From assembly GCF_923868895.1 (NCBI RefSeq), contig NZ_OV350343.1, forward strand, positions 1,984,001-2,048,000: a stretch of DNA of 64,000 nt, read 5' to 3'. The stretch comes from Halomonas sp. TD01 (GTDB lineage Bacteria > Pseudomonadota > Gammaproteobacteria > Pseudomonadales > Halomonadaceae). The notes beneath the pieces are model-generated. The model worked only from the letters and a program-made list of their open reading frames with translations. It was not told the DNA's origin and ran no database searches. This document shows, piece by piece, positions 14,515-60,730 of the stretch (its first letter is position 1; every line of letters starts with the position of its first letter). The position numbers were made by a program, and so were the translations under genes.

Positions 14515-17500
14515 ATGAATAACGTATTTCGCCTTATCTGGAACCGCACCTTAGGTCGTCTGGTTGTGGCATCAGAAGCCGCTCGCTCTCAGCACAAATC
14601 GGGGGCGCGGAAAAGCTTAGTTGGACATATTGAAAGTCCTGGCGTTACACAGAAATGCTTGTTGTTTACCGCAGCGGTCGCTTCGATAGTGGCAGGTAGC
14701 TTGGTACTGTCGGAGCCCAGTTATGCTGCTAAAAGCGCAACACTTACAGGGGCTGGCGCCGGGCTCAAAGTCGGTGACGGGACTTTTGCAAATGATGATG
14801 GCCTCACTACCTTGTATTGGGGCAATCCCAATGTCATTGGTCTGGGCCTGCCTATTGACTACTCAGGTGGTTTAACCGTGAGTGGAGCAGTGGCTATTGG
14901 CACGGACGCTGAGGCGCGCTCCAAGGGGTCTGTTGTTATTGGGGCTAATTCAATCGCTGAATCCCCTGTTGCCAATAATGGTGCATCGACGGTTATTGGC
15001 GCCTATTCCTATGCAGGTAGCAATAACAATGTTGTGTTAGGTAACCGAGGGGTTGCGACCGGTTGGGGGGCGATGGCAATAGGCCGAGAGTCTGGCTCAT
15101 TAGGAAGAAATGCTATTTCATTCGGTAATGTATCGGCTGCCATTGGTGATGGTTCTGTAGCAATGGGGCAGTCGTCACTTGCTTCTGGGCCGCGAGCTAT
15201 TGCCATTGGATCTGCAGATTCTCTAAGAGATTATACTACCCAAAATACACAGGCTATTGGTACTGACTCGCTCGCTTTTGGTACGCGGGCTGTGGCAAGT
15301 CAGCAGGATGCCGTCGCTTTTGGGCGTGAGTCTGGTGCCGCAGGTGTGCAATCTGTTGCCATTGGGACACTTGCCAATGCGGCGGCAAACCGTGCAGTCG
15401 CGATTGGTAGTGATACTCAAGCTGAGCTAAATGCTACCGCTATCGGTGATCAGGCGACATCAATCGGTGAGCGTTCTACAGCCCTAGGTTTTTCATCCAG
15501 TTCCCAAGGTAATGATTCTGTTGCAGTGGGTAATCAAGCGACTGCGACTGGCGTTAATAGTTTGGCGATGGGTAAGGAAAGCCAAGCCACCGGGACAGAT
15601 GCATTAGCTCTAGGAACGGGAGCTATCGCTTCGGGTGACAAAACGATCAGTATTGGTTTTGCTAACGAAGTTTCTGGAACAGGTTCTGGCGCTATCGGTG
15701 ATCCTAATATCATCACGGGCGCAGGCAGCTACGCACTGGGCAACGACAATACCATCGACGCTGACGAGGCCGGTGCGTTTGGTAACCGTAACATCCTTGC
15801 GGCTACCGCTGACGGCAGCCGCATTATCGGCAACGACAATAACATCAATGTCCCCGATGCCATGGTGGTGGGTAATAATGCGGATGTCACGCAGGCGGGA
15901 GGAGTGGCACTAGGCTCTGGTTCGGTAGCAGATACCGCAGCAGGTATAGCGGGCTATGTACCCTTTGGTGCGACGGCAGCAGACACCGCCGCAATTAATG
16001 GTACGGTGGCCACTCAGGCAGCTGTGGATATCGGAAGCCGCCAGATCACCAGCGTTGCGGCAGGTACCGAACTTGATGATGCGGTGAATGTCAGCCAGCT
16101 TGTTGCTACGCAAACTAGTGTGGCAGCAGGCACAAACGTTACGAGTGTGGCAGAAAGTGATAACCCTAATGGTGGGACCATTTACACCATCAACGCTGAT
16201 GGTGCGAGCGTTAGCGCAGGCTCGGCAGCGGTGGACGTCGTCGCCGCTGTACCCGATGCCAATAACGTCACTGACTACGCGGTCGACCTTAGCCAAGCTA
16301 GCAAAGATAGCCTGACGCTGGCGGACTCCGCGCTACAGGACGTGGTGACCCAGGTCGACGGTGTTGACGTCAAAACCCTGACCAAGGGCGATAACAACGC
16401 CAACTTCGTGACGGGCAAGAATATGGCGCTCAGCCCTGACGGTGCGGGCGGCATTGAAATTGCCACGTTGGACAACGTCACCTTCACGGATGTTAAGACC
16501 GACACCCTGACGGCAGGCCCCGTCAACATCGGGGCCACCGGTATCGATGCCGGCAACACCACGATCTCCGGTGTGGCCCCTGGTGTGGCGGGTACTGATG
16601 CGGTCAACCTTAATCAGCTAGACGATGCCGCAGCGGCCTCAAAGACCGAAGTCGCGGGCGGCAGCAATATCGCCAGTGTGGATAAAACCACCGGTATTAA
16701 CGGCCAGGATATCTACACCGTTAACGCCGAGGGCGCATCAGTGAGCGCCGGTTCCGGTGCGGTGGACGTCGTCGCCGCTGCCCCCGATGCCAACAACGTC
16801 ACCGACTACGCGGTCGACCTTAGCCAAGCTAGCAAAGACAGCCTGACGCTGGCGGACTCCGCGCTGCAGGACGTGGTGACCCAGGTTGACGGTGTTGACG
16901 TCAAAACCCTGACCAAGGGCGATAACAACGCCAACTTCGTGACGGGCAAGAATATGGCGCTCAGCCCTGACGGTGCGGGTGGCATTGAAATTGCCACGCT
17001 GGACAATGTCACCTTCACGGATGTTAAAACCGACACCCTGACGGCAGGTCCCGTCAACATCGGGGCCACCGGTATCGATGCCGGCAACACCACGATCTCC
17101 GGTGTGGCCCCTGGGGTGGCGGGTACTGATGCGGTCAATCTTAATCAGCTAGACGATGCCGCAGCGGCTTCGAAGACTGAAGTTGCGGGCGGCAGCAATA
17201 TCGCCAGTGTGGATAAAGCCACTGGTATTAACGGCCAGGACATCTACACCGTGAATGCCGAGGGCGCGAGCGTTAGCGCAGGCTCCGGTGCGGTGGACGT
17301 CGTCGCTGCTGCCCCCGATGCCAACAACGTCACCGACTACGCGGTCGACCTTAGCCAAGCTAGCAAAGACAGCCTGACGCTGGCGGACTCCGCGCTGCAG
17401 GACGTGGTGACCCAGATCGATGGCACTGCGGTTAAGACGATTGATCAGAACGACAATGTCGCTAACTTTATCAGCGGCGATAACATCGAGCTGAGCGATC

Positions 17501-20500
17501 TGGGTGGCGCGATTGAAATTGCCACTAGCCCGAACCTCACCGCTGATAGCCTGACAATCACCAATGGTCCAACGCTCAATGACAACGGCATTGATATGGG
17601 CGGCGATACCATTACCAATGTGGGGGCGCCGATAAACGGTGGTGATGCGGTTAATCTCGATTACTTCGATGAAAACCGCACCCGTTATTACAGTGTCAAT
17701 GATAACGGAGTCCAGCAAGGTAACTATGACAACGACGGTGCGACCGGCATCAATGCGCTGGCGGCGGGTACTAATGCGCTGGCCGATGGTAATTCCTCGC
17801 TAGCCATGGGCGATGGTGCTCGCACAGCGAGTACTGGTGAAGATCAAGTGGCTGTCGGGACGGGGGCCTTAGCGGGAGGTAATAAGTCAGTTGCGATTGG
17901 CCAAGGGGCCCGGGCCGCAACAGATTTATTTGATGGCGGCATAGAAGCTGTTGCCATTGGTAGCGGTGCGTCAGCCCAGGGCACTGGTAATGTTGCCTTA
18001 GGTTCTGATTCGGTCGCTGATGGCAGCACGCTTGCTACTGCGGCTTACCAGCCGCTAGATTCAAGTGGCAATCCGATTGCAGTTGCAGCGCCCACGGCAA
18101 CAAGTGAGGTCTCAGTGGGCACTGTGGGTGATGAGCGTCGCATCATCAATGTTGCTGCCGGTGCAGAAGATACTGACGCCGTCAATGTCAGCCAATTAAA
18201 GGCGGTTAATGAACTGGCCAGCGCTGGCTGGGATGTTCAAACCAACGGTGACACGGCCACCAATGTGGCGCCCGGCGATACTGTTCAGTTTATCGACGGC
18301 AAGAATATTGATATTACTCGCAACGGCGCTGATATCACCGTTGCCACGGCCGACAGTGTGGTCTTTGATGACGTGACCATCACGGGTGGCCCGACGCTCA
18401 CTGGCGGCGGCATTGATATGAACAACACCACCATTAGCAACCTAGCTGATGGGGTGAATGCTAACGACGCCGTGAACCTAAGCCAGTTGGAAGGCGCTGC
18501 TGCCGCTTCAAAGACTGAAGTAGCGGGCGGCACCAATGTGGCCAGTGTGGATAAAGCCACTGGTATTAACGGCCAGGACATCTACACCGTGAATGCGGAT
18601 GGCGCATCAGTAAGCGCCGGTTCCGGTGCGGTGGACGTCGCCGCCGCTGCCCCCGATGCCAACAACGTCACTGACTACGCGGTCGATCTTAGCCAAGCTA
18701 GCAAAGACAGCCTGACGCTGGCGGATTCTGCCTTACAAACCGTGGTCACCCAGATCGATGGCACCGTGGTTAAGACAATTGATCAGAACGACAACGTCGC
18801 TAACTTTATCAGCGGCGATAACATCGAGCTGAGCGATCTGGGTGGCGCGATTGAAATTGCCACTAGCCCGAACCTCACCGCTGATAGCCTAGCGATCACC
18901 AATGGCCCAACGCTTAATGACAACGGCATTGATATGGGCGGCAATACCATTACCAACCTGGGTGATCCGGTGAACGCAGGAGATGCACTCAACCTCAAGT
19001 ATTTCGATGAAAACCGCACCCGCTACTACAGCGTTAACGACGATGGCGTTATTCAGGGTAACTACGAAAACGATGGCGCCACTGGCGTAAATGCAATGGC
19101 CGCCGGTGTAGAGGCCATCTCTACAGGTGAAAATAACACCGCCGTTGGTTTCAATAGCCAAGCAACGGGTGCCAATGATGCGACTGCTGTTGGGGCTAAT
19201 GCTCTGGCGTCGGCTCCTGGTTCGACATCCTTGGGGCAGTCTTCTACGGCGACTGGCAGTACAGCAACTGCTATTGGCACTAGAGCGAACGCGTCAGGTT
19301 CAAGCTCTTCTGCGATTGGTTCAAACGCTCAAGCGTCGGGCACGGCGAGTGTTGCCTTGGGGCGGCTTGCAAATGCCGCCGGTGAAGATGCTGTAGCGAT
19401 TGGTAATAGCGCTAGAAGTGATTATCGAGGCACTGCCGTGGGGCCGCTCTCCGAAGCCACGGGAGATAATGCCACTGCGACAGGTTTCTTTTCTAAAGCT
19501 AACGGTTACTACGCTGCCTCTTACGGCAGTAACTCTAAAGCTGAGGGGGATTTATCTCTAGCAATGGGTGGGGGCTCGCAAGCAACGGCGGCCAATAGTG
19601 TGGCGTTGGGTTCGAATAGCCTAGCCGACGGCAGCACACTGAGCACTGCGGCTTACCAGCCGCTGGATGGTGAAGGCAATCCGATTGCTGTTGCAGCGCC
19701 CACGGCGGATAGCGAAGTTTCAGTGGGTAGTGCTGGTAACGAGCGCCGCATCACTAACGTTGCTGCTGGTGCCACAGATACCGATGCGGTCAACGTCAGC
19801 CAGTTGAAGGCGGTTAATGAAGTAGCCAATACTGGCTGGAATGTTCAAGCCAACGGTGACACGGCTACCAACGTGGCACCCGGCGATACTGTTCAGTTTA
19901 TCGACGGCAAGAATATTGATATTACTCGCAACGGTGCCGATATCACCGTCGCCACGGCCGACAGTGTGGTCTTTGATGATGTGACCATCACCGGTGGGCC
20001 CACGCTCACTAGCGGTGGCATTGATATGAACGCCACCACCATTAGCAACCTGGCTGATGGGGTGAATGCTAACGACGCCGTCAATCTCAGCCAGCTGGAA
20101 AACTCCGCTGCCGCTTCGAAGACTGAAGTGGCTGGTGGCACCAATGTGGCTAGTGTGGACAAGGCTACTGGCGTGAACGGCCAGGATATCTACACCGTGA
20201 ATGCGGACGGCGCATCAGTGAGTGCCGGTTCCGGCGCGGTGGATGTCACTGCCGCTGCGCCAGATGCCAATAACATCACCGACTACGCGGTGGATCTCAG
20301 TCAAGCCAGCAAAGACAGCCTGACGCTGGCCGACTCCGCGTTGCAAACCGTGGTCACTCAGATCGACGGCACTGAGGTGAAAACTCTCGACCAGAACGAC
20401 AACGTCGCCAACTTCGTCACTGGCGATAACATCGTGCTCAGTGACGAGGCTGGCGGCATCAAGATTGCTACTAGCCCAGATCTTACGGCGGATAGCCTGA

Positions 20501-23500
20501 CCATCAACAATGGTGGTCCGACGCTCAATGACAACGGCATTGATATGAACGATAACCGCATCACCAATGTTGGAGAGGCGGTAGACGGTGGTGATGCCAT
20601 CAATCTTGACTACTTCGATGCCAACCGCACCCGCTACTACAGTGTGAATGACGGTGGCACTATTGGCGGCAACTTCAACAACGATGGCGCAACGGGCCTG
20701 AATGCAATTGCCTCCGGCGTTAATGCCACTGCCAGCGGGGATGGCGCGGTGGCTATGGGCTTCGGTGCCAGTGCCCCGATTCGCGATAGCCTGGCATTGG
20801 GCAGTGGCTCGGTAGTGGATCGTGCCCTGGCCCCGGACTCCGGCTTTATTCCAGCCGGGTCCGCGACCATTGAGTTCAACACCACCGATAAAGAGTTGCT
20901 CGGTGCGATCTCGGTAGGTGACAGCGACGCCTACCGCCAGATCACCAACGTCGCCGACGGCACCCAGGCGCAGGACGCCGTGACAGTGCGCCAACTGCAA
21001 GGCGCGGTGGGCTCAGTGATTACCACCGGCATAAAATATTACCGTGCCAACTCCGATGACCCTGACGCGATTGCGGCTGGAGAAGATAGCCTTGCTATTG
21101 GGCCTAATACAGTCACCAATGGTGACAATGGCATCGGCATGGGTAACGGCGCGATTGTCGGTCAAATGGCCCCAGGCGGCACTGCCATTGGTAATAATGC
21201 CGAAGTGCTGCTCTCCGATGGCATTGCGTTCGGCACTAACGCGCGTTCTGAAGCTCAGCAGGGCATTGCCCTGGGCGCAGGCGCGACGGTTAGCCACGAT
21301 CAAAGTGTCGCCTTGGGTAGCAATAGCGTGACAGAGGAAGCGGTGGCCACCAGTGGCGTCACGATTGCCGGTGATAGCTATACCTTCGCAGGCGCCACCC
21401 CAGATAGCACGGTGAGTATTGGCAGTGCAGGCAACGAGCGCACGTTGACCAATGTCGCGGCAGGCCGTGTGAGTGAAACCAGTACCGACGCCATCAATGG
21501 CAGCCAGCTGTTTGCCTCTAATCAAGCCATTGAAGAGGTCAGTGCGATTGCCAACACGGGCTGGGATATTCAAACCAATGGTGATACAGCGACCAGTGTT
21601 GCCCCAGGCGACACTGTTCAGATGCTTGATGGTCAAAACATTGCCATCACCCGCAACGGCACGGATATTACAATCGCCACTGTTGATTCACCGCAGTTCG
21701 GCAATGTCACTGTCAATACTGGTGGTGGTGACACCATTAACGGCCTGTCTAACACCACCTTTGATCCTGATAACTTCACCTCGGGCCAAGCGGCCAGTGA
21801 AGACCAGCTTAAGCAGGTCAGCGATGTCGCCAATACTGGCTGGAATGTTCAAGCCAACGGTGACACGGCTACCAACGTGGCACCCGGCGATACTGTTCAG
21901 TTTATCGACGGCAAGAATATTGATATTACTCGCAACGGTGCCGATATCACCGTCGCCACGGCCGACAGTGTGGTCTTTGATGATGTGACCATCACCGGTG
22001 GCCCCACGCTGACGGGTGGCGGCATTGATATGAACGCCACCACCATTAGCAACCTGGCTGATGGCGTGAACGCCCAAGATGCTGTCAACGTTAGCCAACT
22101 AGAGGGAGCTGCTGCAGCCTCCCGCACGGAAGTCATTGCTGGCACAAACGTGGCCAGTGTTGGCCAAACCACCGGCGCTGACGGCCAAGACATCTACACC
22201 GTGAATGCGGACGGCGCATCAGTGAGTGCCGGTTCCGGCGCAGTAGATGTCACTGCCGCAGCGCCAGATGCCAACAACGTCACCGACTACGCGGTGGATC
22301 TCAGCCAAGCCAGCAAAGACAGCCTGACGCTGGCCGACTCTGCGCTCCAAACTGTGGTTACCCAGATCGACGGTACCGAGGTCAAAACTCTCGACCAGAA
22401 CGATAACGTCGCCAACTTTATCAGCGGTAACAATATCGAACTGAGTGATGATAATGGCGCGATTGAAATCGCCACTAGTGCAGACCTGACGGCGGATAGC
22501 CTGACCATCAACAATGGTGGTCCGACGCTCAATGACAACGGCATTGATATGAACGATAACCGCATCACCAATGTTGGAGAGGCGGTAGACGGTGGTGATG
22601 CCATCAATCTTGACTACTTCGATGCCAACCGCACCCGCTACTACAGTGTGAATGACGGTGGCACTATTGGCGGCAACTTCAACAACGATGGCGCAACGGG
22701 CCTGAACGCCATTGCCTCTGGTGTTAATGCCACTGCCAGTGGAGACGGCGCGGTGGCTATGGGCTTTGGTGCCAGTGCACCGATTCGCGATAGCCTGGCA
22801 CTGGGCAGTGGCTCGGTAGTGGATCGTGCCCTGGCCCCGGACTCCGGCTTTATTCCAGCCGGGTCCGCGACCATTGAGTTCAACACCACCGATAAAGAGT
22901 TGCTCGGTGCGATCTCTGTAGGTGACAGCGACGCCTACCGCCAGATCACCAACGTCGCCGACGGCACTCAGGCGCAGGACGCCGTGACAGTGCGCCAACT
23001 GCAAGGCGCGGTGGGCTCGGTGATTACCACCGGCATAAAATATTACCGTGCCAACTCCGATGACCCTGACGCGATTGCGGCTGGAGAAGACAGTCTTGCT
23101 ATTGGGCCTAATACAGTCACCAATGGTGACAATGGCATCGGCATGGGTAACGGCGCGATTGTCGGGCAAATGGCCCCAGGTGGCACTGCGATTGGTAATA
23201 ATGCTGAGGTACTGCTCTCCGATGGCATTGCGTTCGGCACTAACGCGCGTTCTGAAGCTCAGCAGGGCATTGCCCTGGGCGCAGGCGCGACGGTTAGCCA
23301 CGATCAAAGTGTCGCCTTGGGTAGCAATAGCGTGACAGAGGAAGCGGTGGCCACCAGTGGCGTCACGATTGCCGGTGATAGCTATACCTTCGCAGGCGCC
23401 ACCCCAGATAGCACGGTGAGTATTGGCAGTGCAGGCAACGAGCGCACGTTGACCAATGTCGCGGCAGGCCGTGTGAGTGAAACCAGTACCGACGCCATCA

Positions 23501-26500: not shown

Positions 26501-26703
26501 ATGCTCTAGTACGTGGCAGCTTAGCGATTGGTAGTGGCTCGGTTTCTGACCGAGCCTTAGCGCCTGAATCGGGCTTTATACCAGCCGGCTCGGCAACCAT
26601 TGAATTTAACACCACCGACAAAGAACTGCTTGGCGCTATTTCCGTCGGGGACAGCGATTCTTACCGTCAGATTATTAATGTTGCCGATGGCACTGAAGCG
26701 TAA
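14515..26703 (+). CDS. Giant trimeric autotransporter adhesin TAA1, N-terminal part before an in-frame stop
   Basis: A trimeric autotransporter adhesin: 4,062 residues up to an ochre codon at 26701, after which the same frame continues to a full anchor at 30390 (5,291 codons in total). It begins with an ESPR extended signal peptide ([20 protein letters not shown]; cleavage near residue 71) preceded by GGAGAAAGGGC. A YadA-type beta-roll head follows (repeats of the kind AIGxxAxAxGxxSxAxG, ~14880-15700). Alternating neck motifs (DAVNVSQL), stalk segments and further heads come after. Two 531-bp units (16114-17175) and a 2004-bp unit repeated from 20122 lie inside. Surface adhesion is the family role. 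Without the anchor, this truncated product should not insert in the outer membrane. The ATG at 14515 is certain from the ESPR. Confidence 0.93.
16114..17175 (+). repeat. 531-bp tandem repeat, two units, in TAA1
   Basis: Units at 16114-16644 and 16645-17175 encode 177 residues each (TEVAGG...[12 protein letters not shown]). The first begins with a diverged copy. The same unit is expanded to eleven copies in TAA2. Confidence 0.92.
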
Positions 26704-27285
26704 GACGCCGTCACGGTTCGCCAGCTACAGGGGGCAATAGGCTCTGTAGTTAATACCGGCACTAAGTATTTCCACGCCAACTCTACGGCGCCAGACTCAC
26801 TTGCGGCAGGTAACGACAGTATTGCCGTTGGGCCAACCACGGTCACTAACGGTGATAACGGCATTGGTATGGGGAATGGCGCAATTGTTGGTCAAATGGC
26901 ACCGGGTGGTACCGCCATTGGCAATAATGCCGAGGTATTGCTCTCCGACGGAATCGCGTTCGGCACTAATGCCCGCTCTGAAGCTCAGCAGGGTATTGCC
27001 CTGGGCGCAGGGGCGACGGTTAGCCACGATCAAAGTGTAGCGTTAGGTAGCAACAGTACAACGGATGAGCCGGTGGCTACTCAGGGTATTACGCTGATTG
27101 GCAATGATTACTCATTTGCAGGTACCACGCCGGATAGCACGGTGAGTGTTGGCAGTGCAGGCAACGAGCGCACGTTGACCAATGTAGCGGCTGGTCGTGT
27201 TAGTGAAACCAGCACTGATGCCATCAACGGTAGTCAGCTGTTTGCTTCTAACCAAGCCATTGAAGAAGTAAGTGCCGCAGCCAAT
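20122..27285 (+). repeat. 2004-bp tandem repeat in TAA1
   Basis: Full units at 20122-22125 and 22126-24129 (668 aa each). The third unit, 24130-25854, lacks 279 bp (93 codons). A more diverged fourth begins at 25855 and contains the premature stop. Each unit joins a stalk segment, a small head starting [14 protein letters not shown], a neck ([13 protein letters not shown]) and a second head ([18 protein letters not shown]). Confidence 0.88.
26701..26703 (+). other. Premature in-frame ochre stop in TAA1
   Basis: The reading is GAA-GCG-TAA-GAC-GCC-GTC. In the other copies of this neck motif the codon is glutamine: GAA-GCG-CAA-GAC near 28000, GAA-GCT-CAA-GAC near 24975 and GCG-CAG-GAC near 20970 and 22975. 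A single C-to-T change explains it, and the downstream frame is unbroken. Confidence 0.9.
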
Positions 27286-31229: not shown

Positions 31230-31266
31230 TTAACGGCTAAGCCTTTTAGCAATGCCGATCTTTTAG

Positions 31267-31294
31267 CCGAAGCTTTTAAAGCTTCGGTTTTTTT
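31267..31294 (+). terminator. Terminator after tpgA-like 1
   Basis: The hairpin CCGAAGC/GCTTCGG with AT-rich inner pairs (31267-31287) is followed by TTTTTTT. Confidence 0.9.
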
Positions 31295-43502: not shown

Positions 43503-43547
43503 AGTTTCTGTTACTAATAGGCTTGTATGACGGAATAGGGCGTGACC

Positions 43548-51200: not shown

Positions 51201-54200
51201 GACACCACGGTGAAGGGCGATACCTTCCTTGGTGACAACTTCTCGGTCGTTAATAACGAAGCGATCTACAACGTTGAGCCTGACCAGATCATCAATGACT
51301 ACCAAGTCACCAACAAGAAGTACGTAGATAACAGCGTGACCGCGCTGGGCGACACGCCGCTGACGTTTGGCGACGATGCTGGCACTACGACGGATCGTAA
51401 GCTGGGTGAGCGTCTAGACGTCGTCACCAGCAACGCCAACCTCAGCACCACGCTGACGGATGAGCAGACTCTGGAAATCGCCATGAGCGATGATCTGGAC
51501 GTCAACAATGTCACGGTTAATGACTCGCTCACGGTTAACGGCCCCACCACCCTGAACGGCGGCACCACCATTGGTGACAGCCTGACCTTGCTGGCGGGCA
51601 CGACCGTTGACATGGGTGGCAACCAGATCACCAACGTGGCAGCCGGTACCGAAGGCGACCACGCGGTGAACCTGGATCAGTTGACTGACGTCAGCGACGT
51701 GGCGAACAAGGGCTGGAACGTTCAGACCAACGGCGACGTTGCAACCAACGTAGCGCCAGGTGACACCGTTCAGATGATCGATGGTAAGAACATCGCCATC
51801 ACGCGTGACGGCAAGGATATCACCGTAGCGACGGCAGACGATGTCGAGTTCACCAATGTCGACGTGACTGAGAACCTTAACGTTGCGGGCAACACGACCA
51901 TCGAAGGCGACACCACGGTGAAGGGCGATACCTTCCTGGGTGACAACTTCTCGGTCGTTAATAACGAAGCGATCTACAACGTTGAGCCTGACCAGATCAT
52001 CAATGACTACCAAGTCACCAACAAGAAGTACGTAGATAACAGCGTGACCGCGCTGGGCGACACGCCGCTGACGTTTATGGGTGACAGCGGTACTCAGTTT
52101 GATCGCAAGCTGGGTGAAACCGCCAACGTTAAAGGCGGTAACACCGGCACATTGACCGATGGCAACATTGGTGTGGTCGCTGACGGCACTGACACTCTGA
52201 ATATCAAGCTGGCTGAAAACGTTGACCTGGGCCTGAATGGCAGCGTCGTCATGGGCGACACCACCGTTAACAACGACGGCCTGACCATCGCTGGTGGCCC
52301 GAGCATCACTAATACAGGCATTGATGCAGGTAACACCACCATCACCAACGTCGCACCAGGTGTTGACGGTACGGATGCGGTTAACGTTGACCAGCTGACG
52401 AACGTCAGCGACGTGGCAAACAAGGGCTGGAACGTTCAAGCCAACGGCGACGTTGCAACCAACGTAGCGCCAGGTGACACCGTTCAGATGATCGATGGTA
52501 AGAACATCGCCATCACACGTGACGGCAAAGATATCACTGTCGCGACGGCAGACGATGTCGAATTCACCAATGTTGACGTGACTGAGAACCTTAACGTTGC
52601 GGGCAACACGACCATCGAAGGCGACACCACGGTGAAGGGCGATACCTTCCTGGGTGATAACTTCTCGGTCGTTAATAACGAAGCGATCTACAACGTTGAG
52701 CCCGATCAGATCACCAATGATTACCAGGTCACCAACAAGAAGTATGTAGATAACAGCGTGACCGCGCTGGGCGACACGCCGCTGACCTTTATGGGTGACA
52801 GCGGTACTCAGTTTGATCGCAAGCTGGGTGAAACCGCTAATGTCAAAGGTGGCAGCATCGGCACATTGACCGATGGCAACATTGGTGTGGTCGCTGACGG
52901 CACTGACACTCTGAATATCAAGCTGGCTGAAAACGTTGACCTGGGCCTGAACGGCAGCGTTGTCATGGGCGATACCACCGTTAACAACGATGGCCTGACC
53001 ATCGCTGGTGGCCCGAGCATCACTAATACAGGCATTGATGCAGGTAACACCACCATCACCAACGTCGCACCAGGTGTTGACGGTACGGATGCGGTTAACG
53101 TTGACCAGCTGACGAACGTCAGCGACGTGGCGAACAAGGGCTGGAACGTTCAGACCAACGGCGACGTTGCAACCAACGTAGCGCCAGGTGACACCGTTCA
53201 GATGATCGATGGTAAGAACATCGCCATCACACGTGATGGCAAAGATATCACTGTCGCGACGGCAGACGATGTCGAGTTCACCAATGTTGACGTGACTGAG
53301 AACCTTAACGTTGCGGGTGATACTGCGATTGGTGGTAACACGACGATCGCGGGCAACACGACCATTGAAGGCGACACCACGGTGAAGGGCGATACCTTCC
53401 TGGGTGATAACTTCTCGGTCGTTAATAACGAAGCGATCTACAACGTTGAGCCTGACCAGATCACTAACGACTACCAAGTAGTCAACAAGAAGTATGTCAC
53501 TCAGGCGGGCGACGACCTGATCGACAACAACCCGCTGACGTTTGGCGACGATGCTGGCACTACGACTGATCGTAAGCTGGGTGAGCGTCTAGACGTCGTC
53601 ACCAGCAACGCCAACCTCAGCACCACGCTGACGGATGAGCAGACTCTGGAAATCGCCATGAGCGATGATCTGGACATCAACAATGTCACGGTTAATGACT
53701 CGCTCACGGTTAACGGCCCCACCACCCTGAACGGCGGCACCACCATTGGTGACAGCCTGACCTTGCTGGCGGGCACGACCGTTGACATGGGTGGCAACCA
53801 GATCACCAACGTGGCAGCCGGTACCGAAGGCGACCACGCGGTGAACCTGGATCAGTTGACTGACGTCAGCGACGTGGCGAACAAGGGCTGGAACGTTCAG
53901 ACCAACGGCGACGTTGCAACCAACGTAGCGCCAGGTGACACCGTTCAGATGCTCGATGGCAAGAACATCGCCATCACGCGTGACGGCAAAGATATCACTG
54001 TCGCGACGGCAGACGATGTCGAGTTCACCAATGTCGACGTGACTGAGAACCTTAACGTTGCGGGTGATACCAATATTGCAGGTGACACTATCATTGGTGG
54101 TAACACCACCATCAACGAAAACTTGACGGTTGAAGGTGACACCTACCTGGGTGACAGCTTCTCAATCGTGAACAACGAAGCGTTCTACGACGGCCCGGTG

Positions 54201-57200
54201 ACGGAAGATAACCACATCACCAACAAGAGCTACGTGGATAACTCAGTGACCGAGCTGGGCGACACGCCGCTAACGTTTGGTGCTAACGAAGGTGACGACA
54301 CTGATCGCCGCCTGGGTGACCGCCTGGACATCGTAGGCGAGGAAGATGCGGAAGGTGATAGCAACATCATCACCAAGATCACGGATGAAGAAACCCTCGA
54401 ACTGGCGCTGAATGACGATCTTAAGATCGGCAACAGCATCACCGTGGGCGACACCTTCATTGATGGTGACAGCGTCACCACCAACAACATGACGGTGAAC
54501 GAGAACCTGACGGTACAAGGCGAGACCCGCCTGGGTGACAACTTCTTCGTCAACAACGAAGGTAATGTCACTTACACCGGCGACATCACCGAAGGCGACC
54601 ACATCACCAACAAGAGCTACGTTGACAACAGCGTCACTGAGTTGGGCGATACGCCGCTGACCTTTGCAGGCGACAGTGGTACACCGTTCGAGCGTCGCTT
54701 GGGTGAAACCACCAACGTTAAAGGTGGTGCTGAAGGTGGTCTGACTGAAGGTAACATCGGTGTCGTGGCCGATGGTGAAGACACGCTCAACATCCAGCTG
54801 GCCGAGAACATCGACCTGGGTGAAGACGGCAGCCTGACGATCAACGAAACGCTGATCGACGGTAACCAAGTCACCACCAATAACGTCACGGTGAATGAGA
54901 CTCTGACTGTTGAAGGCGACACGTTCCTGAACGAGAACCTAACGGTAGCGGGTAACACCACCATCAACGAAAACCTGACGGTTGAAGGTGACACCTACCT
55001 GGGTGACAGCTTCTCAATCGTGAACAACGAAGCGTTCTACGACGGCCCGGTGACGGAAGATAACCACATCACCAACAAGAGCTACGTGGATAACTCAGTG
55101 ACCGAGCTGGGCGACACGCCGCTAACGTTTGGTGCTAACGAAGGTGACGACACTGATCGCCGCCTGGGTGACCGCCTGGACATCGTAGGCGAGGAAGATG
55201 CGGAAGGTGATAGCAACATCATCACCAAGATCACGGATGAAGAAACCCTCGAACTGGCGCTGAATGACGATCTTAAGATCGGCAACAGCATCACCGTGGG
55301 CGACACCTTCATTGATGGTGACAGCGTCACCACCAACAACATGACGGTGAACGAGAACCTGACGGTACAAGGCGAGACCCGCCTGGGTGACAACTTCTTC
55401 GTCAACAACGAAGGTAACGTCACTTACACCGGCGACATCACCGAAGGCGACCACATCACCAACAAGGACTACGTTGACAACAGCGTGACCGAGTTGGGCG
55501 ATACGCCGCTGACCTTCGCTGGCGACAGCGGCGAGTCATTCGAGCGTCGCCTGGGTGAGCAGACCAACGTGAAAGGTGGTTCTGAAGGCGGCTTGACCGA
55601 AGGCAACATCGGCGTGGTGGCGGATGGTGAAGACACGCTCAACATCCAACTGGCCGAGAACATCGACCTGGGTGAAGACGGCAGCCTGACGATCAACGAA
55701 ACGCTGATCGACGGTAACCAAGTCACCACCAATAACGTCACGGTGAATGAGACTCTGACTGTTGAAGGCGACACGTTCCTGAACGAGAACCTAACGGTAG
55801 CGGGTAACACCACCATCAACGAAAACCTGACGGTTGAAGGTGACACCTACCTGGGTGACAGCTTCTCAATCGTGAACAACGAAGCGTTCTACGACGGCCC
55901 GGTGACGGAAGATAACCACATCACCAACAAGAGCTACGTGGATAACTCAGTGACCGAGCTGGGCGACACGCCGCTAACGTTTGGTGCTAACGAAGGTGAC
56001 GACACTGATCGCCGCCTAGGTGACCGCCTGGACATCGTAGGCGAGGAAGGTGCGGAAGGTGATAGCAACATCATCACCAAGATCACGGATGAAGAAACGC
56101 TTGAGCTGGCGTTGAATGACGATCTTAAGATCGGCAACAGCATCACCGTGGGCGACACCTTCATTGATGGTGACAGCGTCACTACCAACAACATGACGGT
56201 GAACGAGAACCTAACCGTTGAGGGCGAGACCCGCCTGGGTGACAACTTCTTCGTCAACAACGAAGGTAATGTCACTTACACCGGCGACATCACCGAAGGC
56301 GACCACATCACCAACAAGAGCTACGTTGACAACAGCGTCACTGAGTTGGGCGATACGCCGCTGACCTTTGCAGGCGACAGTGGTACACCGTTCGAGCGTC
56401 GCTTGGGTGAAACCACCAACGTTAAAGGTGGTGCTGAAGGTGGTCTGACTGAAGGTAACATCGGTGTCGTGGCCGATGGTGAAGACACGCTCAACATCCA
56501 ACTGGCCGAGAACATCGACCTGGGTGAAGATGGCAGCCTGACGATCAACGAAACGCTGATCGACGGTAACCAAGTCACCACCAATAACGTCACGGTGAAT
56601 GAGACCCTGACCGTTGAAGGCGACACGTTCCTGAACGAGAACCTAACGGTAGCGGGTAACACCACCATCAACGAAAACTTGACGGTTGAAGGTGACACCT
56701 ACCTGGGTGACAGCTTCTCAATCGTGAACAACGAAGCGTTCTACGACGGCCCGGTGACGGAAGATAACCACATCACCAACAAGAGCTACGTGGATAACTC
56801 AGTGACCGAGCTGGGCGACACGCCGCTAACGTTTGGTGCTAACGAGGGTGACGACACCGATCGCCGCCTGGGTGACCGCCTGGACATCGTAGGCGAGGAA
56901 GGTGCGGAAGGTGATAGCAACATCATCACCAAGATCACGGATGAAGAAACCCTCGAACTGGCGCTGAACGACGATCTTAAGATCGGCAACAGCATCACCG
57001 TGGGCGACACCTTCATTGATGGTGACAGCGTCACTACCAACAACATGACGGTGAACGAGAACCTAACCGTTGAGGGCGACACGTTCCTGAACGAGAACCT
57101 AACGGTAGCGGGTAACACCACCATCAACGAAAACCTGACGGTGGAAGGCACCACGCAGCTGGGCGACAACTTCTTCGTAACCAACGAAGGTAACGTCACA

Positions 57201-59885
57201 TACGACGGTGATATCACCGAAGGCAACCACATCACCAACAAGAGCTACGTGGATAACTCAGTGACTGAGCTGGGCGACACGCCGCTGACCTTTGGTGCTA
57301 ACGAAGGTGACGACACTGATCGCCGCCTGGGTGACCGCTTGGACATCGTAGGCGAGGCTGATGAGGAAGGTAACAGCAACATCATCACCAAGCTAACGGA
57401 TGAGGAAACGCTTGAGCTGGCGTTGAATGACGACCTCAAGATCGGCAACAGCATCACCGTGGGCGACACCTTCATTGATGGTGACAGCATCACCACCAAC
57501 AATATGACGGTGAATGAAAACCTCACGGTGGCAGGCGAAACCCGTCTGGGCGACAACTTCATTGTGACTAACGAAGGCAACGTCACTTACACCGGCGACA
57601 TCACTGAAGGCAACCACATTGTCAACAAAGACTATGTGGACGGCGGTATCGATGAACTGGGTGATCGCCCGATTTATTTCGCAGGCGATACTGGAGAAAA
57701 AGTCGCTAAGCGACTGCGCGAAACACTGACTATCTCTGGTGAACTGGCGGAAGATGCTGATGCAACAGGCGCTAACCTGCGCATCGACAGCGATAGTAAA
57801 CAACTGAACTTAGTGATGGCGAAGAATCTGACAGATCTGGAAAGCATCACACTAGGTGATACGTTTATTAGCAACGAAGGCATTACCCTTGGCGACACCA
57901 CCATCAATGGCGCTCGTATCTCCAGCAACAATCTTACTGTGACTGGTGAGACTAAGCTGGGCGATAACTTCTTCGCGAACAATGATGGCAACGTCACTTA
58001 CACCGGTGATATCACCGAAGGCACTCACATCGTCAACAAGGATTATGTTGACGGTGCTGGTGATCAGTTGATTGCAAACAATCCGCTGACGTTTGGTGCT
58101 AACGAAGGTGAGGACACCGAACGCCGTTTGGGTGACCGTCTGGACATCGTAGGCGAGGCTGATGAGGAAGGTACCAGTAACATCATCACCAAGCTTACCG
58201 ATGAGCAGACGCTTGAACTGGCGCTGAACGACGATCTCAAGATCGGTAATAGCATTGCTGTAGGTGAAGATGGTCCGGTCATCAGCGGCGATGGAATCGA
58301 CATGGGTGATAACAAAATCACCAATGTGGCTGATGGTTCGGTATCGGCTGATAGCAAAGATGCTATTAACGGCTCTCAGCTTTACCAGTTGGAAAGCATT
58401 GTCACTAACGTTACTGGTGATATAAGCAACGAATATGTGACCAATAACGGCCGTGGCATCCGCTACGTGCGCACCAACGACAGCGGCTTAGCAGTGAGCG
58501 ATGCCTTTGCTCAAGGGCAAGGTTCGACCGCTGTTGGCTACGAAGCCGTCGCCTCGGCTGATCGCGCGTTAGCCATGGGTTACGACGCCATTGCATCGCA
58601 TCAAGGCAGCGTAGCACTAGGTGAAGGTGCTCGCACCGCTGAGGCGGTAAGCACTGCTTCGATAGAGATTGCAGGCCAAACGTACCAGTTTGCGGGCGCC
58701 TCTCCGGTAGCCACTGTCAGCGTTGGCAGCGTCGGTGCTGAACGTACGGTGACCAATGTAGCGGCAGGCCGAGTGTCGGCTGAGAGCACGGATGCTATTA
58801 ACGGAAGCCAGCTGTATGCCACCAACCAGGCGGTCGGCGCACTAGACAACCGCGTTACCAATGTTGAAGGTGATATCAGTAATATCACCAACGACTTGGC
58901 TGACCTGGATGATCGCGCAGTGAAATATGACCGCAGCGACGACGGCAGTGTTGACTACAACACGATTACGTTGGAAGGCGATGGCGGTACGAAGATCACC
59001 AATGTGGCACCCGGTGATATTGCGCAAAACAGCTCGGATGCGGTGAACGGCAGCCAGCTATGGGATGTGCAGAACCAAATCACTGACATTGAGCAGGGTG
59101 GTTCCAAGTACTTCCGAGCCAACAGTGAAGGCCCTGTCGCAGACCCGCAAGGGGCCGACAGCATCGCCATGGGGTCAAGCAGCGTTGCTGCAGGCGACCG
59201 TAGCGTTGCCTCGGGGGCTGGAGCACAGGCCAATGCCGAAGGCAGTGTTGCACTTGGTGCGGATTCCGTTGCTGACCGTGAAGGCATGAACGGTGAGCGT
59301 GAGCGCTTCTCCAACGAATCCGTTGCTTCCACACAGGGCGCTGTTTCTGTGGGTAGTGAAGGAAATGAGCGTCAGATCACCAACGTGGCAGGCGGTACCC
59401 AAGACACCGACGCGGTTAACGTTCGTCAGTTGGATGCGGTACAGCGTGGTGCGGTGAACTACGATCGCGATGAAGACGGCAATGTGGACTACAGCACTAT
59501 CACGCTGAAAGGCGATGAAGGCACCACCATCACCAATGTGGCGCCAGGTATTAATGCCAACGATGCTGCCAACGTGGGGCAGTTGAATGACCTCGGTCGT
59601 CGTTTTGAGAACGAGATTATCAACGTGCATGGCCGTATCGACAGCGTTGAACGTAATGCTAACGCCGGTTCTGCTAGCGCGATCGCCGCCTCTACGGTGC
59701 CGCAAGCCTGGATGCCTGGTAAGAGCATGGTAGGTGTGGGGGCAGGTACCTACGGTGGCGAATCTGCGGTCTCTGTGGGTGTATCGCGCCTCTCAGACAA
59801 TGGCCGCTGGGTTATCCAAGGTAAGGTGACGGGCGACTCGCAAAGCAACTTCGGCGCAGGTATTGGCGCTGGCTGGCACTGGTAA
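45201..59885 (+). CDS. Giant trimeric autotransporter adhesin TAA3
   Basis: A 4,894-residue intact TAA, the largest uninterrupted gene here. The ESPR ([20 protein letters not shown]) is followed by a signal peptide ending near residue 74 (SPVQA). A very long YadA-type beta-roll head covers ~45460-48650 and a second head covers ~50230-50930. The stalk is made of four 708-747-bp modules (51003-53885) and three 852-bp modules (54129-56684 plus a partial fourth) built on NLTVxGxTxLGDNF and ITNKxYVDNSVTELGDTPLTF motifs. The C-terminal GIRYVRTND block, short coiled coil and YadA anchor (ending GAGWHW) are nearly identical to TAA1. The ribosome site is weak (GTGGAG, 11 bases away). tpgA-like 3 follows 11 bp after the stop. 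Family role: surface fibre for adhesion and autoaggregation. Confidence 0.95.
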   Translation: MNNVFRLIWNRTLGRLVVTSEAARSRDKAATRQGVVGQLPAPEVASNIPALLRPVVAAVALAVGSITLVSPVQADALMNADSCANQGFNNTRIGIGSGAKACGDGLIAIGWGAEATGVDLVFPPNPDVQSGVAIGRASSATGGVAIGHRAAAGGSNSDGTSSVGTAIGGGSVARGHRSIAIGTVGNRPTVASANWAMALGTNATASEVRSVALGPEAKAKGVGSLAMGDGAVAESIRVTTQALYDAPTSNPNGYEVGDYLPTTAVGAGATANSGTAIGHDAVAGRESGNGDGLINTGTALGAGAQATGNTSIAISPAAYAPAIADGLGAIAVGYDTRANELGSLAIGIRAEAAEAAMAFGYGAKALGKGGSALGGDAKATGNRSVAIGAAEAAKAGDIAIGDEAYAEGGVDGSGNPMSALAVGFGAEAVGEDAAAFGNNAKARANYGLAVGNFAEANGVQASSLGNGAQANGDYSLALGNIAKANGVSASSVGNFAEADGDYSIALGEFSEAGGSRSTAVGSGAKASAENAWASGSDAVASANGAIALGKQSQATVENTVAMGTNAEASATNAIAIGKDSLASGVDTGAIGRGAVATGSWAVGTGANASNGGQAFGEYSTASGNVSSAYGYNATATGNRSSALGTSARAEGVRSVAVGDGALSRNIALTSVALSGTSNPNGYKVGDPMPTVAVGAGSRAVNGTAVGFDAVAGKVVGSTTNSGTAIGGGAQATGNASIAISPAAEAPAIADGLGAVAMGYDARAMQLGSLAIGIRADASEYGNAFGNRANAGDYGVANGFKANATGERAIAIGTESLASVDDAIAVGTNARATGVDALAIGRDAWAAGSVAQGAVARAANGGAAFGDGAQATWREDNDPNENPETFDVSGAALGKNALANRSGATALGANTEVLVDDGVALGSGSISTVGPGVNGYIPATADAAQEQAILDTAAVRGAVDVGSRQITSVAAGTQDDDAVNVSQLKAVETMAAESGVNYYSVQDDGTPEGNFNNDGATGWKSLAAGTNASATKDHALAVGDGAQAIGFEAMAIGREAVASGPNSSIAIGQLAKATQDFAISIGRSSEATAQNAVALGNGALARVEQGVALGSGSLSTVGAGVAGFVPAGADAADEQAILDTIATRGSVDIGSRQITRVAAGTKDGDAVNVAQLKSVNNLAGAGWDVQVNAEVADNVAPGETVQFIDGKNIDITRDGDQIIKVATSDNVEFNQVTIGDATNNTVITSTVDGLDVGGDKITNVADGEISNTSSDAVNGSQLFATNTNVDNNTTNITNNTTEIGKGINFGDGATANNYALGDTINVKGDPNVTSTTTADGVQLGLADVVNIGSTNPVTIDGNSGTIGGLTNKTFDPNNFTSGQAASEDQLSQVTSDLTTEGLDFAGNEGADVHRDLGQTLAIQGEATSGGAYTGANLKTVTDPLTGAINLQMTDSPDFTNVNVTNQLDVAGDTNIGGNTTIQGDTTVKGDTFLGDNFSVVNNEAIYNVEPDQITNDYQVTNKKYVDNSVTALGDTPLTFMGDSGTQFDRKLGETANVKGGSIGTLTDGNIGVVADGTDTLNIKLAENVDLGLNGSVVMGDTTVNNDGLTVGDTIVNGDSITTNNLTVSGETKLGDNFVVNNEGNVSYTGDIIDGNNIVNKDYVDGKETHYYSVNDGGTIQGNYENDGATGVNAMAAGVKAVATGLENTAIGFNTQATGSNRATAVGANALASAPGTTSLGGFAAATGISATAIGTRANASGLGSSAIGSNAKASGLASVALGQLSMAAGEDSVAVGSSSSSGYRGVSVGRQTETSGENGTATGFFSRANGDYAAAYGSNSKASGDFSLAMGASSEATAENSVALGAGSVADGSTLGTAAYQPLDINGNPIAVAAPSAASEVSVGSAGNERRITNVAAGATDTDAVNVSQLKAVNEVANTGWNVQANGDVATNVAPGDTVQMIDGKNIAITRDGKDITVATADDVEFTNVDVTENLNVAGNTTIEGDTTVKGDTFLGDNFSVVNNEAIYNVEPDQIINDYQVTNKKYVDNSVTALGDTPLTFGDDAGTTTDRKLGERLDVVTSNANLSTTLTDEQTLEIAMSDDLDVNNVTVNDSLTVNGPTTLNGGTTIGDSLTLLAGTTVDMGGNQITNVAAGTEGDHAVNLDQLTDVSDVANKGWNVQTNGDVATNVAPGDTVQMIDGKNIAITRDGKDITVATADDVEFTNVDVTENLNVAGNTTIEGDTTVKGDTFLGDNFSVVNNEAIYNVEPDQIINDYQVTNKKYVDNSVTALGDTPLTFMGDSGTQFDRKLGETANVKGGNTGTLTDGNIGVVADGTDTLNIKLAENVDLGLNGSVVMGDTTVNNDGLTIAGGPSITNTGIDAGNTTITNVAPGVDGTDAVNVDQLTNVSDVANKGWNVQANGDVATNVAPGDTVQMIDGKNIAITRDGKDITVATADDVEFTNVDVTENLNVAGNTTIEGDTTVKGDTFLGDNFSVVNNEAIYNVEPDQITNDYQVTNKKYVDNSVTALGDTPLTFMGDSGTQFDRKLGETANVKGGSIGTLTDGNIGVVADGTDTLNIKLAENVDLGLNGSVVMGDTTVNNDGLTIAGGPSITNTGIDAGNTTITNVAPGVDGTDAVNVDQLTNVSDVANKGWNVQTNGDVATNVAPGDTVQMIDGKNIAITRDGKDITVATADDVEFTNVDVTENLNVAGDTAIGGNTTIAGNTTIEGDTTVKGDTFLGDNFSVVNNEAIYNVEPDQITNDYQVVNKKYVTQAGDDLIDNNPLTFGDDAGTTTDRKLGERLDVVTSNANLSTTLTDEQTLEIAMSDDLDINNVTVNDSLTVNGPTTLNGGTTIGDSLTLLAGTTVDMGGNQITNVAAGTEGDHAVNLDQLTDVSDVANKGWNVQTNGDVATNVAPGDTVQMLDGKNIAITRDGKDITVATADDVEFTNVDVTENLNVAGDTNIAGDTIIGGNTTINENLTVEGDTYLGDSFSIVNNEAFYDGPVTEDNHITNKSYVDNSVTELGDTPLTFGANEGDDTDRRLGDRLDIVGEEDAEGDSNIITKITDEETLELALNDDLKIGNSITVGDTFIDGDSVTTNNMTVNENLTVQGETRLGDNFFVNNEGNVTYTGDITEGDHITNKSYVDNSVTELGDTPLTFAGDSGTPFERRLGETTNVKGGAEGGLTEGNIGVVADGEDTLNIQLAENIDLGEDGSLTINETLIDGNQVTTNNVTVNETLTVEGDTFLNENLTVAGNTTINENLTVEGDTYLGDSFSIVNNEAFYDGPVTEDNHITNKSYVDNSVTELGDTPLTFGANEGDDTDRRLGDRLDIVGEEDAEGDSNIITKITDEETLELALNDDLKIGNSITVGDTFIDGDSVTTNNMTVNENLTVQGETRLGDNFFVNNEGNVTYTGDITEGDHITNKDYVDNSVTELGDTPLTFAGDSGESFERRLGEQTNVKGGSEGGLTEGNIGVVADGEDTLNIQLAENIDLGEDGSLTINETLIDGNQVTTNNVTVNETLTVEGDTFLNENLTVAGNTTINENLTVEGDTYLGDSFSIVNNEAFYDGPVTEDNHITNKSYVDNSVTELGDTPLTFGANEGDDTDRRLGDRLDIVGEEGAEGDSNIITKITDEETLELALNDDLKIGNSITVGDTFIDGDSVTTNNMTVNENLTVEGETRLGDNFFVNNEGNVTYTGDITEGDHITNKSYVDNSVTELGDTPLTFAGDSGTPFERRLGETTNVKGGAEGGLTEGNIGVVADGEDTLNIQLAENIDLGEDGSLTINETLIDGNQVTTNNVTVNETLTVEGDTFLNENLTVAGNTTINENLTVEGDTYLGDSFSIVNNEAFYDGPVTEDNHITNKSYVDNSVTELGDTPLTFGANEGDDTDRRLGDRLDIVGEEGAEGDSNIITKITDEETLELALNDDLKIGNSITVGDTFIDGDSVTTNNMTVNENLTVEGDTFLNENLTVAGNTTINENLTVEGTTQLGDNFFVTNEGNVTYDGDITEGNHITNKSYVDNSVTELGDTPLTFGANEGDDTDRRLGDRLDIVGEADEEGNSNIITKLTDEETLELALNDDLKIGNSITVGDTFIDGDSITTNNMTVNENLTVAGETRLGDNFIVTNEGNVTYTGDITEGNHIVNKDYVDGGIDELGDRPIYFAGDTGEKVAKRLRETLTISGELAEDADATGANLRIDSDSKQLNLVMAKNLTDLESITLGDTFISNEGITLGDTTINGARISSNNLTVTGETKLGDNFFANNDGNVTYTGDITEGTHIVNKDYVDGAGDQLIANNPLTFGANEGEDTERRLGDRLDIVGEADEEGTSNIITKLTDEQTLELALNDDLKIGNSIAVGEDGPVISGDGIDMGDNKITNVADGSVSADSKDAINGSQLYQLESIVTNVTGDISNEYVTNNGRGIRYVRTNDSGLAVSDAFAQGQGSTAVGYEAVASADRALAMGYDAIASHQGSVALGEGARTAEAVSTASIEIAGQTYQFAGASPVATVSVGSVGAERTVTNVAAGRVSAESTDAINGSQLYATNQAVGALDNRVTNVEGDISNITNDLADLDDRAVKYDRSDDGSVDYNTITLEGDGGTKITNVAPGDIAQNSSDAVNGSQLWDVQNQITDIEQGGSKYFRANSEGPVADPQGADSIAMGSSSVAAGDRSVASGAGAQANAEGSVALGADSVADREGMNGERERFSNESVASTQGAVSVGSEGNERQITNVAGGTQDTDAVNVRQLDAVQRGAVNYDRDEDGNVDYSTITLKGDEGTTITNVAPGINANDAANVGQLNDLGRRFENEIINVHGRIDSVERNANAGSASAIAASTVPQAWMPGKSMVGVGAGTYGGESAVSVGVSRLSDNGRWVIQGKVTGDSQSNFGAGIGAGWHW
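51003..53885 (+). repeat. Four ~714-bp modules in the TAA3 stalk
   Basis: Units begin at the GWNVQ(A/T)NGDVATNVAPG motif at 51003, 51711, 52425 and 53139, with the next start at 53886 (spacings 708, 714, 714, 747). Two alternative inserts follow the shared core (GDDAGTTTDRKLGERLDV or MGDSGTQFDRKLGETANV). Confidence 0.9.
54129..57143 (+). repeat. 852-bp tandem repeat in the TAA3 stalk
   Basis: Units at 54129-54980, 54981-55832 and 55833-56684 (284 aa each) are nearly identical; a partial fourth runs from 56685 to about 57143. Each starts VEGDTYLGDSFSIVNNEAF. Confidence 0.93.
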
Positions 59886-60336
59886 AGGAGAGCGACGTGA
59901 ACAACCGTAGCAATCGCATGATGACAAAGGCGGCCCTTGGGGCCGCCAGTATAGCCGCCGTTCTCGTTTTAGCGGGCTGTGCTAGCCCGCCCAACAACGA
60001 CCGTACCGAATTGCGCGACGCCGGAGATGGCTTTCCGGCGCTAGCGGGCAACTGGTACGACGGCGGACAGTTTGTTGACCCTGAAAACATTTTGCGTATT
60101 CGGGAAAGCCAAACAAAAGATCAAGTACGCCAGTTAATCGGTAACCCTCACTTCACGGAAGGGTTCTTTGGTGTTCGAGAGTGGAACTATGTTTTCAATC
60201 TCTATACAGGCAATGGAAATGAGTACATTACTTGCCAATACCAAGTGCACTATGACGATGATATGGCGTTAGAAAGCACTCGCTGGCGGGATGCGCAGTG
60301 TCCTGCGCTACTAGTGCCAATCGAAGTGGAAGAGAT
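58456..60336 (+). repeat. Long duplicated block, copy 2 (TAA3 C-terminus plus tpgA-like 3 N-terminus)
   Basis: Partner of 28961-30841 at offset 29,495. Near-identity stops at 60336/30841, close to residue 147 of the lipoprotein, just before the OmpA-like domain. Confidence 0.9.
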
Positions 60337-60730
60337 CGCTGCTGAGCCGCGTGAAGAGAAGCTGACGCTATCAGGCGATGTATTATTTGATTTCGATAGT
60401 GATACGTTGACGCTAGAGGGACGTCGTGCTGTTGATCAAGTGACTCAAACGATCGCAAGTGACTTCGTGAGCCCAAGTGTGTTGATCATTGGTTATACAG
60501 ATCGCTTTGGTAGCGAGGCGTATAACCTAGCGTTATCCAACTCTCGTGCTGAAACGGTAGGTGCCCGTATGGCTAATCAGGGGATTAGTCGATCGAGCAT
60601 TATGACGGCTGGACGTGGTATGGCAGACCCTGTTGTAGAGTGCCCAGGAAGAAGTGCAACGCCAAGTGTGACTGAGTGTTTGAGGCCAAATAGGCGAGTG
60701 GAAATTACGGTTACTGAGACGGCTCGTTAG
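59897..60730 (+). CDS. TpgA-like lipoprotein 3: BamE-like plus OmpA-like domains
   Basis: A 277-residue lipoprotein. Residues 1-147 are encoded by DNA identical to copy 1 except for one silent base, so the signal, lipobox (C28) and BamE-like domain are the same. The OmpA-like half diverges clearly (for example LTLEGRRAVDQVTQTIASDF) but keeps the ligand-binding pattern YTDRFGSEAYNLALSNSRAETV and the cysteines near the end (VECPG, ECLRPNRRVEI). The GTG start with AAGGAGAG is 11 bp after TAA3. Proposed role: partner of the TAA3 barrel, anchoring it to peptidoglycan. Confidence 0.9.
   Translation: MNNRSNRMMTKAALGAASIAAVLVLAGCASPPNNDRTELRDAGDGFPALAGNWYDGGQFVDPENILRIRESQTKDQVRQLIGNPHFTEGFFGVREWNYVFNLYTGNGNEYITCQYQVHYDDDMALESTRWRDAQCPALLVPIEVEEIAAEPREEKLTLSGDVLFDFDSDTLTLEGRRAVDQVTQTIASDFVSPSVLIIGYTDRFGSEAYNLALSNSRAETVGARMANQGISRSSIMTAGRGMADPVVECPGRSATPSVTECLRPNRRVEITVTETAR

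Follow-up and report, generated by a model that had tools for sequence, protein, structure and literature searches.

The locus described here raises the question of how many kinds of surface fibre, and how many kinds of tether, one cell encodes when its giant adhesin genes stand in series. It lies in a window of 64,000 nucleotides (positions 1984001-2048000) of the Halomonas sp. TD01 genome, a single contig of 4,142,565 bases that is 99.99% complete. Three trimeric autotransporter adhesin (TAA) genes stand there in tandem, each followed by a gene for a lipoprotein with a BamE-like and an OmpA-like half, and together they occupy positions 14515-60730 of the window. A first-pass annotation had taken them for a triplicated, self-contained system in which each fibre has its own cell-wall tether. 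From comparison of sequences, we consider it likely that this is a conserved multi-fibre adhesion locus in which tethers resembling TpgA, the partner of the Acinetobacter adhesin AtaA, are matched to the type of barrel, and in which modules have been shuffled in blocks.

The gene content that had been described, namely three consecutive TAA genes with ESPR starts (5,291 interrupted, 3,933 and 4,894 codons), each directly followed by a BamE/OmpA-like lipoprotein gene and filling about 46 kb, was borne out by the open reading frames, the gaps and the domain matches. ESPR (PF13018) was found in the three TAAs with E values of 2.3e-10, 4.2e-11 and 2.1e-10, and all three have YadA stalk and head domains. 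YadA_anchor gave three matches genome-wide, all inside the window and all above cut-off; that of module 2 was the weakest, at 36.8 bits, and was absent from the whole-protein domain scan listing. With ESPR/signal, head and stalk repeats and YadA anchor, the proteins belong to type Vc (trimeric autotransporter adhesins), module 1 only across two pieces. All the genes of the array are on the plus strand. The N-terminal part of the module 1 TAA (14515..26703) has ESPR, heads and stalks and no anchor; it ends at one in-frame stop codon, TAA, at 26701-26703, after which the same frame reopens at 26869..30390 as the C-terminal part, with stalk, head and a Hia-like class A YadA anchor and without ESPR. 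The whole span, 14515-30390, amounts to 5,292 codons, final stop included. After a gap of 11 nt comes lipoprotein 1 (30402..31229). Module 2 consists of a TAA of 3,933 aa (31668..43469) with ESPR, an AtaA-like class B anchor and the end GISGVID, then, after 72 nt, of lipoprotein 2 (43542..44339). Module 3 consists of a TAA of 4,894 aa (45201..59885) with ESPR, a Hia-like class A anchor and the end GAGWHW, then, again after 11 nt, of lipoprotein 3 (59897..60730). With module 1 interrupted, this strain probably displays no fibres other than 2 and 3. AtaA is 3,630 residues long. Its fibre measures about 260 nm (PMC13082670), from which simple proportion gives, as a rough guess, 280 and 350 nm for fibres 2 and 3. 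A programmed stop shared with relatives was also considered and found no support: the TAA codon here and a TAG codon in relative G068 (G numbers denote genomes, L numbers loci) stand in differing contexts, and G064 has a frame change.

The barrels fell into two classes. That of module 2 scored 104.6 bits against AtaA-TM (9VNJ chain A) versus 39.9 bits against Hia, and that of module 3 scored 83.0 bits against Hia (3EMO) versus 60.6 bits against AtaA; the last 75 residues are identical between the module 1 and module 3 barrels. On this similarity the array is made of two kinds of barrel in A-B-A order, Hia-like A in modules 1 and 3 and AtaA-like B in module 2. Plain triplication of one unit was ruled out, since module 2 belongs to the other barrel class. 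The tethers follow the same pattern, the BamE-half DNA of lipoproteins 1 and 3 being 99.7% identical and their OmpA halves different. Because these BamE halves are nearly identical, the three tethers probably represent two specificities rather than three. Tethers 1 and 3 would then probably be exchangeable, the distinction that matters being A versus B. The notion of one tether per fibre holds as to gene count, and is favoured by co-variation at a known salt bridge (see below), but the tethers are probably of two kinds only.

We then considered what the lipoproteins are. BamE (PF04355) and OmpA (PF00691) were both found above curated cut-offs in all three, which thus have the make-up of TpgA, that is, a BamE-like N-terminal half and an OmpA-like C-terminal half encoded beside a TAA gene. 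The NCBIfam family for TpgA (NF047726) was the best family for each, over most of its length. Against TpgA-N (PDB 9VNJ), the BamE halves of lipoproteins 1 and 2 scored 68.5 and 88.7 bits, lipoprotein 2 being the nearest to TpgA among the three, versus at best 24.4 and 25.5 bits against BamE itself. Lipoprotein 3 reached 19.9 bits with the NCBIfam BamE equivalog PRK11548, the cut-off of which is 93 bits, and this family was not among the best 25 of 33 and of 30 matches for lipoproteins 1 and 2, respectively. Both diaminopimelate-binding positions are conserved in the OmpA half. A predicted structure of lipoprotein 1 (predicted template modelling score, pTM, 0.48), which bears on the OmpA half only, had only OmpA-type domains among the fold matches listed. 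The lipobox reads LAGC and the next residue is A. The residue that follows the lipobox cysteine steers a lipoprotein to its membrane, and we infer that these proteins are lipid-anchored in the outer membrane.

The evidence that bears most directly on contact comes from the interface itself. In the AtaA-TpgA complex, two salt bridges, K3576-D65 and D3601-K64, have been described (PMC13082670). We located these sites by counting along the aligned 9VNJ chains, so that the numbering is our own; the barrel sites are the K of PGK and the D of DNG, and the tether sites the K-D of a (T/H)KDQ motif. All four residues (K64 and D65 with their partner sites K3576 and D3601) were found in each of the three modules. 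The comparison was extended to a set made of 25 genus pairs, family loci and 80 loci kept of 104, which gave 102 pairs, or 81 after dropping identical ends. The pairing rule assigned no upstream anchor to 22 of the 124 lipoproteins, which stayed outside the 81 pairs: two lie at contig starts, two are second lipoproteins behind a first, 12 are from Pasteurellaceae with no TAA seen, two are Collimonas loci (L104 with an ESPR-like frame downstream, L127 with none seen), and four (L086, L097, L099 and L115, all K/D) were overlooked by the rule although the C-terminus of a TAA lies immediately upstream of them. Site 64 is K and site 3601 acidic in 81/81 pairs. At sites 3576 and 65, a basic and an acidic residue face each other in 65 pairs, neither charge is present in 11, and five are mismatched. 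The association between these two sites persisted after clustering and outside Halomonadaceae, changes at both coincided on shared tree branches above expectation, and each site was the other's best partner. Both charge states even occur in one genome, G068, each within its own module, E/H in the A module and K/D in the B module. It is this co-variation that argues most strongly for contact between tether and barrel in these relatives too, Hia-like barrels included.

DNA comparisons suggested how such modules evolve. Within five genomes, we compared module 1 with module 3 (in G064, the two A modules). Identity was 84-96% for the anchor and 86-100% for the BamE half, and fell to 58-61% for the OmpA half; OmpA halves compared between species (module 1 with module 1, or 3 with 3) were 76-87% identical. 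In the host genome, anchor and BamE half reached 94.6% and 99.7%, versus about 86 and 85% between species, a level that fits recent gene conversion. The module 2 adhesin gene is covered to 75% by module 1 at 91% identity, despite the different barrel classes, and to 88% by its positional orthologue in G047 at 75% identity. These patterns show that passenger, barrel plus BamE half, and OmpA half move as separate blocks: in the host genome, barrel and BamE half have been homogenised jointly between modules 1 and 3, the OmpA half has remained position-specific, and modules 1 and 2 have passenger DNA in common.

Arrays of this kind were then sought among relatives. YadA anchors occurred in 15 of 82 genus genomes, and all 25 anchors have a TpgA-like gene directly downstream, which, together with the homology to AtaA-TM and TpgA-N, supports the likeness to AtaA-TpgA noticed at first pass. 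Close TpgA-like genes (>230 bits) without an anchor were limited to two in G078, at contig ends; G008 has a broken relic of a B-type TpgA-like gene, also without an anchor. The A-B-A order was found in four of the 82 congeners: the host genome (G000), G047, G003 and G080. In G047 it lies on a single contig with all three TAAs open (4,522, 4,609 and 5,387 aa); a contig end divides the third module in G003 and G080. G064 is A-A and G068 a broken B followed by A. A search across Halomonadaceae for array size, as had been proposed, gave a TpgA-like match at E <=1e-30 in 37 of 275 genomes, and G130 and G145 proved to hold additional tandem pairs. Of 369 genomes drawn evenly from the class, 14 gave a match, but only four of them, host included, over both halves. 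Threefold arrays are uncommon, yet several species here have one; the host array is unusual, as the first impression had it, but not unique. Named records with such genes include Vreelandella zhaodongensis, V. andesensis, V. venusta and V. azerica, and others labelled Halomonas. Across the nine multi-module loci, the first module is broken in five (a stop in G000, G068 and G145, a frame change in G064, a relic in G008) and open in G047, G003, G080 and G130. As for the last module, six genomes (G000, G047, G064, G068, G130 and G145) have it open, while it is broken in G008 and cut by the contig end in G003 and G080. Incidentally, a second TpgA-like gene stands directly behind the first, after a single TAA, at L081:5835-6740 and L101:5859-6770, and G038 (L042-L043) has at the same locus a single TAA of 7,224 aa, the longest open frame among the loci examined.

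In the arrangement that we favour, the locus would make up to three long surface fibres, each a homotrimeric TAA with its C-terminal barrel in the outer membrane. Behind each TAA, the lipoprotein would be held by its lipid in the same membrane, its BamE-like half gripping the periplasmic face of the barrel, as homology to 9VNJ and co-variation suggest, and its OmpA-like half binding peptidoglycan, in keeping with the conserved diaminopimelate-binding positions. Load would be shared as in AtaA-TpgA. Each barrel class would have its own matched BamE half, and recombination would shuffle the three blocks.

Several observations weigh against this arrangement. All three lipoproteins stayed below the 350-bit equivalog cut-off of NF047726 (158.9, 177.5 and 161.6 bits for lipoproteins 1, 2 and 3), for which reason we call them TpgA-like and not TpgA. 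K3576-D65 ranked only 19th after correction, with 18 column pairs higher, and 104th by raw mutual information; the pairs that outrank it are probably mostly phylogenetic. The five mismatched pairs of the 81 include an acid-acid pair, L167, and within Halomonadaceae site 3576 is other than basic in only four of 40 pairs, three of them in one clade. Where the pair is E/H, there is a basic residue three positions ahead of the E, and the contact may therefore have shifted instead of being reversed. On the DNA, the BamE half lies closer to the anchor than the OmpA half does, so linkage accounts for part of their closer co-divergence. For the anchor of G003 (83.9%) and the BamE half of G064 (85.7%), identity within the genome does not exceed that between species, and homogenisation of modules 1 and 3 was thus not equally recent everywhere. 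Lastly, the 12 Pasteurellaceae loci (L098, L102, L106, L109, L112, L121, L122, L124-L126, L132 and L133) have a TpgA-like gene with no TAA in the flanks covered, which extend 5 kb or so at the most in each direction; this indicates that TAA-TpgA coupling is not universal.

A possibility was that the lipoproteins are export or assembly helpers, that is, BamE-like or SadB-like chaperones, rather than load-bearing tethers. Their N-terminal half is a BamE domain, and loss of TpgA lowers surface AtaA, with mechanism and substrate range described as unknown in the available text of PMC8151025. However, the OmpA half keeps its peptidoglycan-binding residues and is modelled like wall-binding domains, and the BamE half is far nearer to TpgA-N than to BamE, which leaves us to regard a pure helper role as rather unlikely; the two roles are compatible with each other. 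Another reading, which we regard as rather improbable, is that barrel and tether diverged together through DNA adjacency and joint inheritance only, any tether serving any barrel. With gaps of 11-72 nt, linkage alone predicts matching trees, and tethers 1 and 3 are indeed interchangeable in BamE-half sequence. Yet linkage does not predict that charge is lost at 65 when 3576 loses it, and the residue-level co-variation survives clustering and falls on shared branches.

The array might also be a cassette for antigenic or specificity variation, in which a broken module 1 and repeats donate passengers and the tethers play no special part. The module 2 adhesin is closer to module 1 than to its G047 orthologue, and first modules are often broken, as such a cassette would have it; but three modules are open in G047, the first is open in G003, G080 and G130, and the barrel types stay separate, so we deem this explanation improbable. 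That the array is an assembly artefact of one module is hardly credible: long near-identical repeats are present, but barrel class, OmpA half and intergenic DNA are not the same from module to module, the host genome is a single contig, and the same order recurs in three other species. We rejected the artefact on the strength of the G047 array, intact on one contig, and of the differing OmpA halves. A bolder version of matched tethers shuffled in blocks is that one cell runs two orthogonal fibre-tether systems. An interface charge code would set tether choice and would have been rewired in some relatives (from K/D to E/H in the G068 A module, its B module keeping K/D), and gene conversion would keep barrel and clamp matched while fibres and wall-binding halves swap freely. 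We put this forward tentatively, at somewhat less than an even chance.

TAA-TpgA pairs and TAA clusters are both already known (PMC13082670, PMC7549365, PMC7247748). The nearest system is AtaA-TpgA of Acinetobacter sp. Tol 5 (PDB 9VNJ; PMC13082670), likewise a giant TAA followed by a BamE-OmpA protein, which the locus resembles in its module 2 barrel, in tether BamE halves that align to TpgA-N and in the K, D, K, D residues of all modules. It differs from it in having three tandem modules, two barrel classes and lipoproteins under the TpgA equivalog cut-off. Hia of Haemophilus influenzae (3EMO, 2GR7) is nearest in sequence to the module 3 barrel, whose last 75 residues recur in module 1. PMC13082670 states that a periplasmic partner of this sort had been reported for neither YadA nor Hia; in contrast, the Hia-like barrels here come with a TpgA-like partner. 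TAA genes are also tandem or clustered in Bartonella quintana (Vomp A-D), but these encode proteins of about 100 kDa each, with four genes in 12.8 kb (PMC7247748). The adhesin cluster of Veillonella parvula is another case, and shows domain swaps and copy-number change as well (PMC7549365). A repeated BamE-OmpA partner is mentioned for neither cluster in the available portions of these two papers, the word OmpA occurring twice elsewhere in the Veillonella text. In Salmonella, SadA also has a dedicated lipoprotein, SadB, but this lipoprotein is a trimer of the inner membrane and is not similar to TpgA (PMC8151025). A literature search that covered neither Yoshimoto 2025 nor Dorison 2026 returned no account of tandem TAA-TpgA arrays or of this co-variation. 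A 2021 review (PMC8151025) called it unknown whether TpgA-type partners act on other adhesins. With two barrel classes in one genome, each next to a tether of its own, and with natural pairs in which interface charges have changed, the partner range of TpgA becomes directly testable with natural proteins. The array also displays the points at which recombination divides such a large adhesin module: one separates the fibre from its barrel, the other the clamp on the barrel from the half that binds the wall.

The surroundings of the array are conserved as well. In the genus, as far as the sequence around each array extends, a purC-like gene and a response regulator on the minus strand precede the array, and genes for a 141-aa protein, a DUF6447 protein, a Sel1-SH3 protein, a FecR-LysM protein and a CHASE2 kinase follow it (the names purC and, below, rluB were assigned by eye). 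In the window, the OmpR-type regulator lies at 13005..13745 (minus strand) and, all on the plus strand, the 141-aa protein at 60827..61252, the usual locus members DUF6447 at 61321..61650 and Sel1-repeat plus SH3 at 61717..62652, and FecR plus LysM at 62702..64000, where it runs beyond the window. The CHASE2 histidine kinase comes after the FecR-LysM gene, outside the window (L187:3299-5602). As exceptions, G034 retains only a Sel1-SH3 match, G057 has no DUF6447 match, and G014 and G067 have no FecR-LysM match. The 141-aa protein, without Pfam or NCBIfam match, occurs in 15 of 82 congeners; 14 of these are among the 15 genomes in which a YadA anchor was found, and the other is G078, where the locus is present too. 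It is possibly a new accessory factor of the fibres. At E to 1e-60 the regulator was found in 17 of the 82 congeners and at E to 1e-100 the kinase in 16, both together in 16. Given their flanking position and co-occurrence, kinase and regulator are a candidate two-component system of this locus. Both occur with no anchor found in G050, in G051 (66% complete) and in G002, where the kinase lies close to the start of a contig and the regulator some 4 kb away from the end of one; conversely, G014 has an anchor and neither gene at these thresholds. In G050 (L199, one contig), the FecR-LysM and kinase genes are found together with a truncated regulator gene but no adhesin block, making this a natural adhesin-less version of the locus.

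In the gaps at 31150-31700, 44250-45250 and 60650-60900, promoter-like sites showed no excess over shuffles, and terminator-like sites numbered 1, 0 and 1 versus 0.7, 0.8 and 0.1 expected; the first of them is a weak hairpin after lipoprotein 1 (31265..31289, plus strand). On these counts, the gap sequences do not establish separate transcription units.

G050 also has a BapA-type adhesin with a TpgA-like neighbour. In eight of the 82 congeners (L052-L059), a distant BamE-OmpA protein is encoded directly upstream of a giant BapA-type adhesin, as at L056:5040-5810 and L056:6070-12000. The L056 protein scored 107 bits with the TpgA model and 20.3, below cut-off, with BamE. PF22783 (BapA_N) was found in the one BapA-type adhesin tested, and in G024 an OEP-type (TolC-like) fragment follows the adhesin. 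In six of the eight stretches, a gene resembling rluB, of the kind seen in the window, is found upstream; the other two stretches are too short. TpgA-like tethers may serve type I secreted adhesins too.
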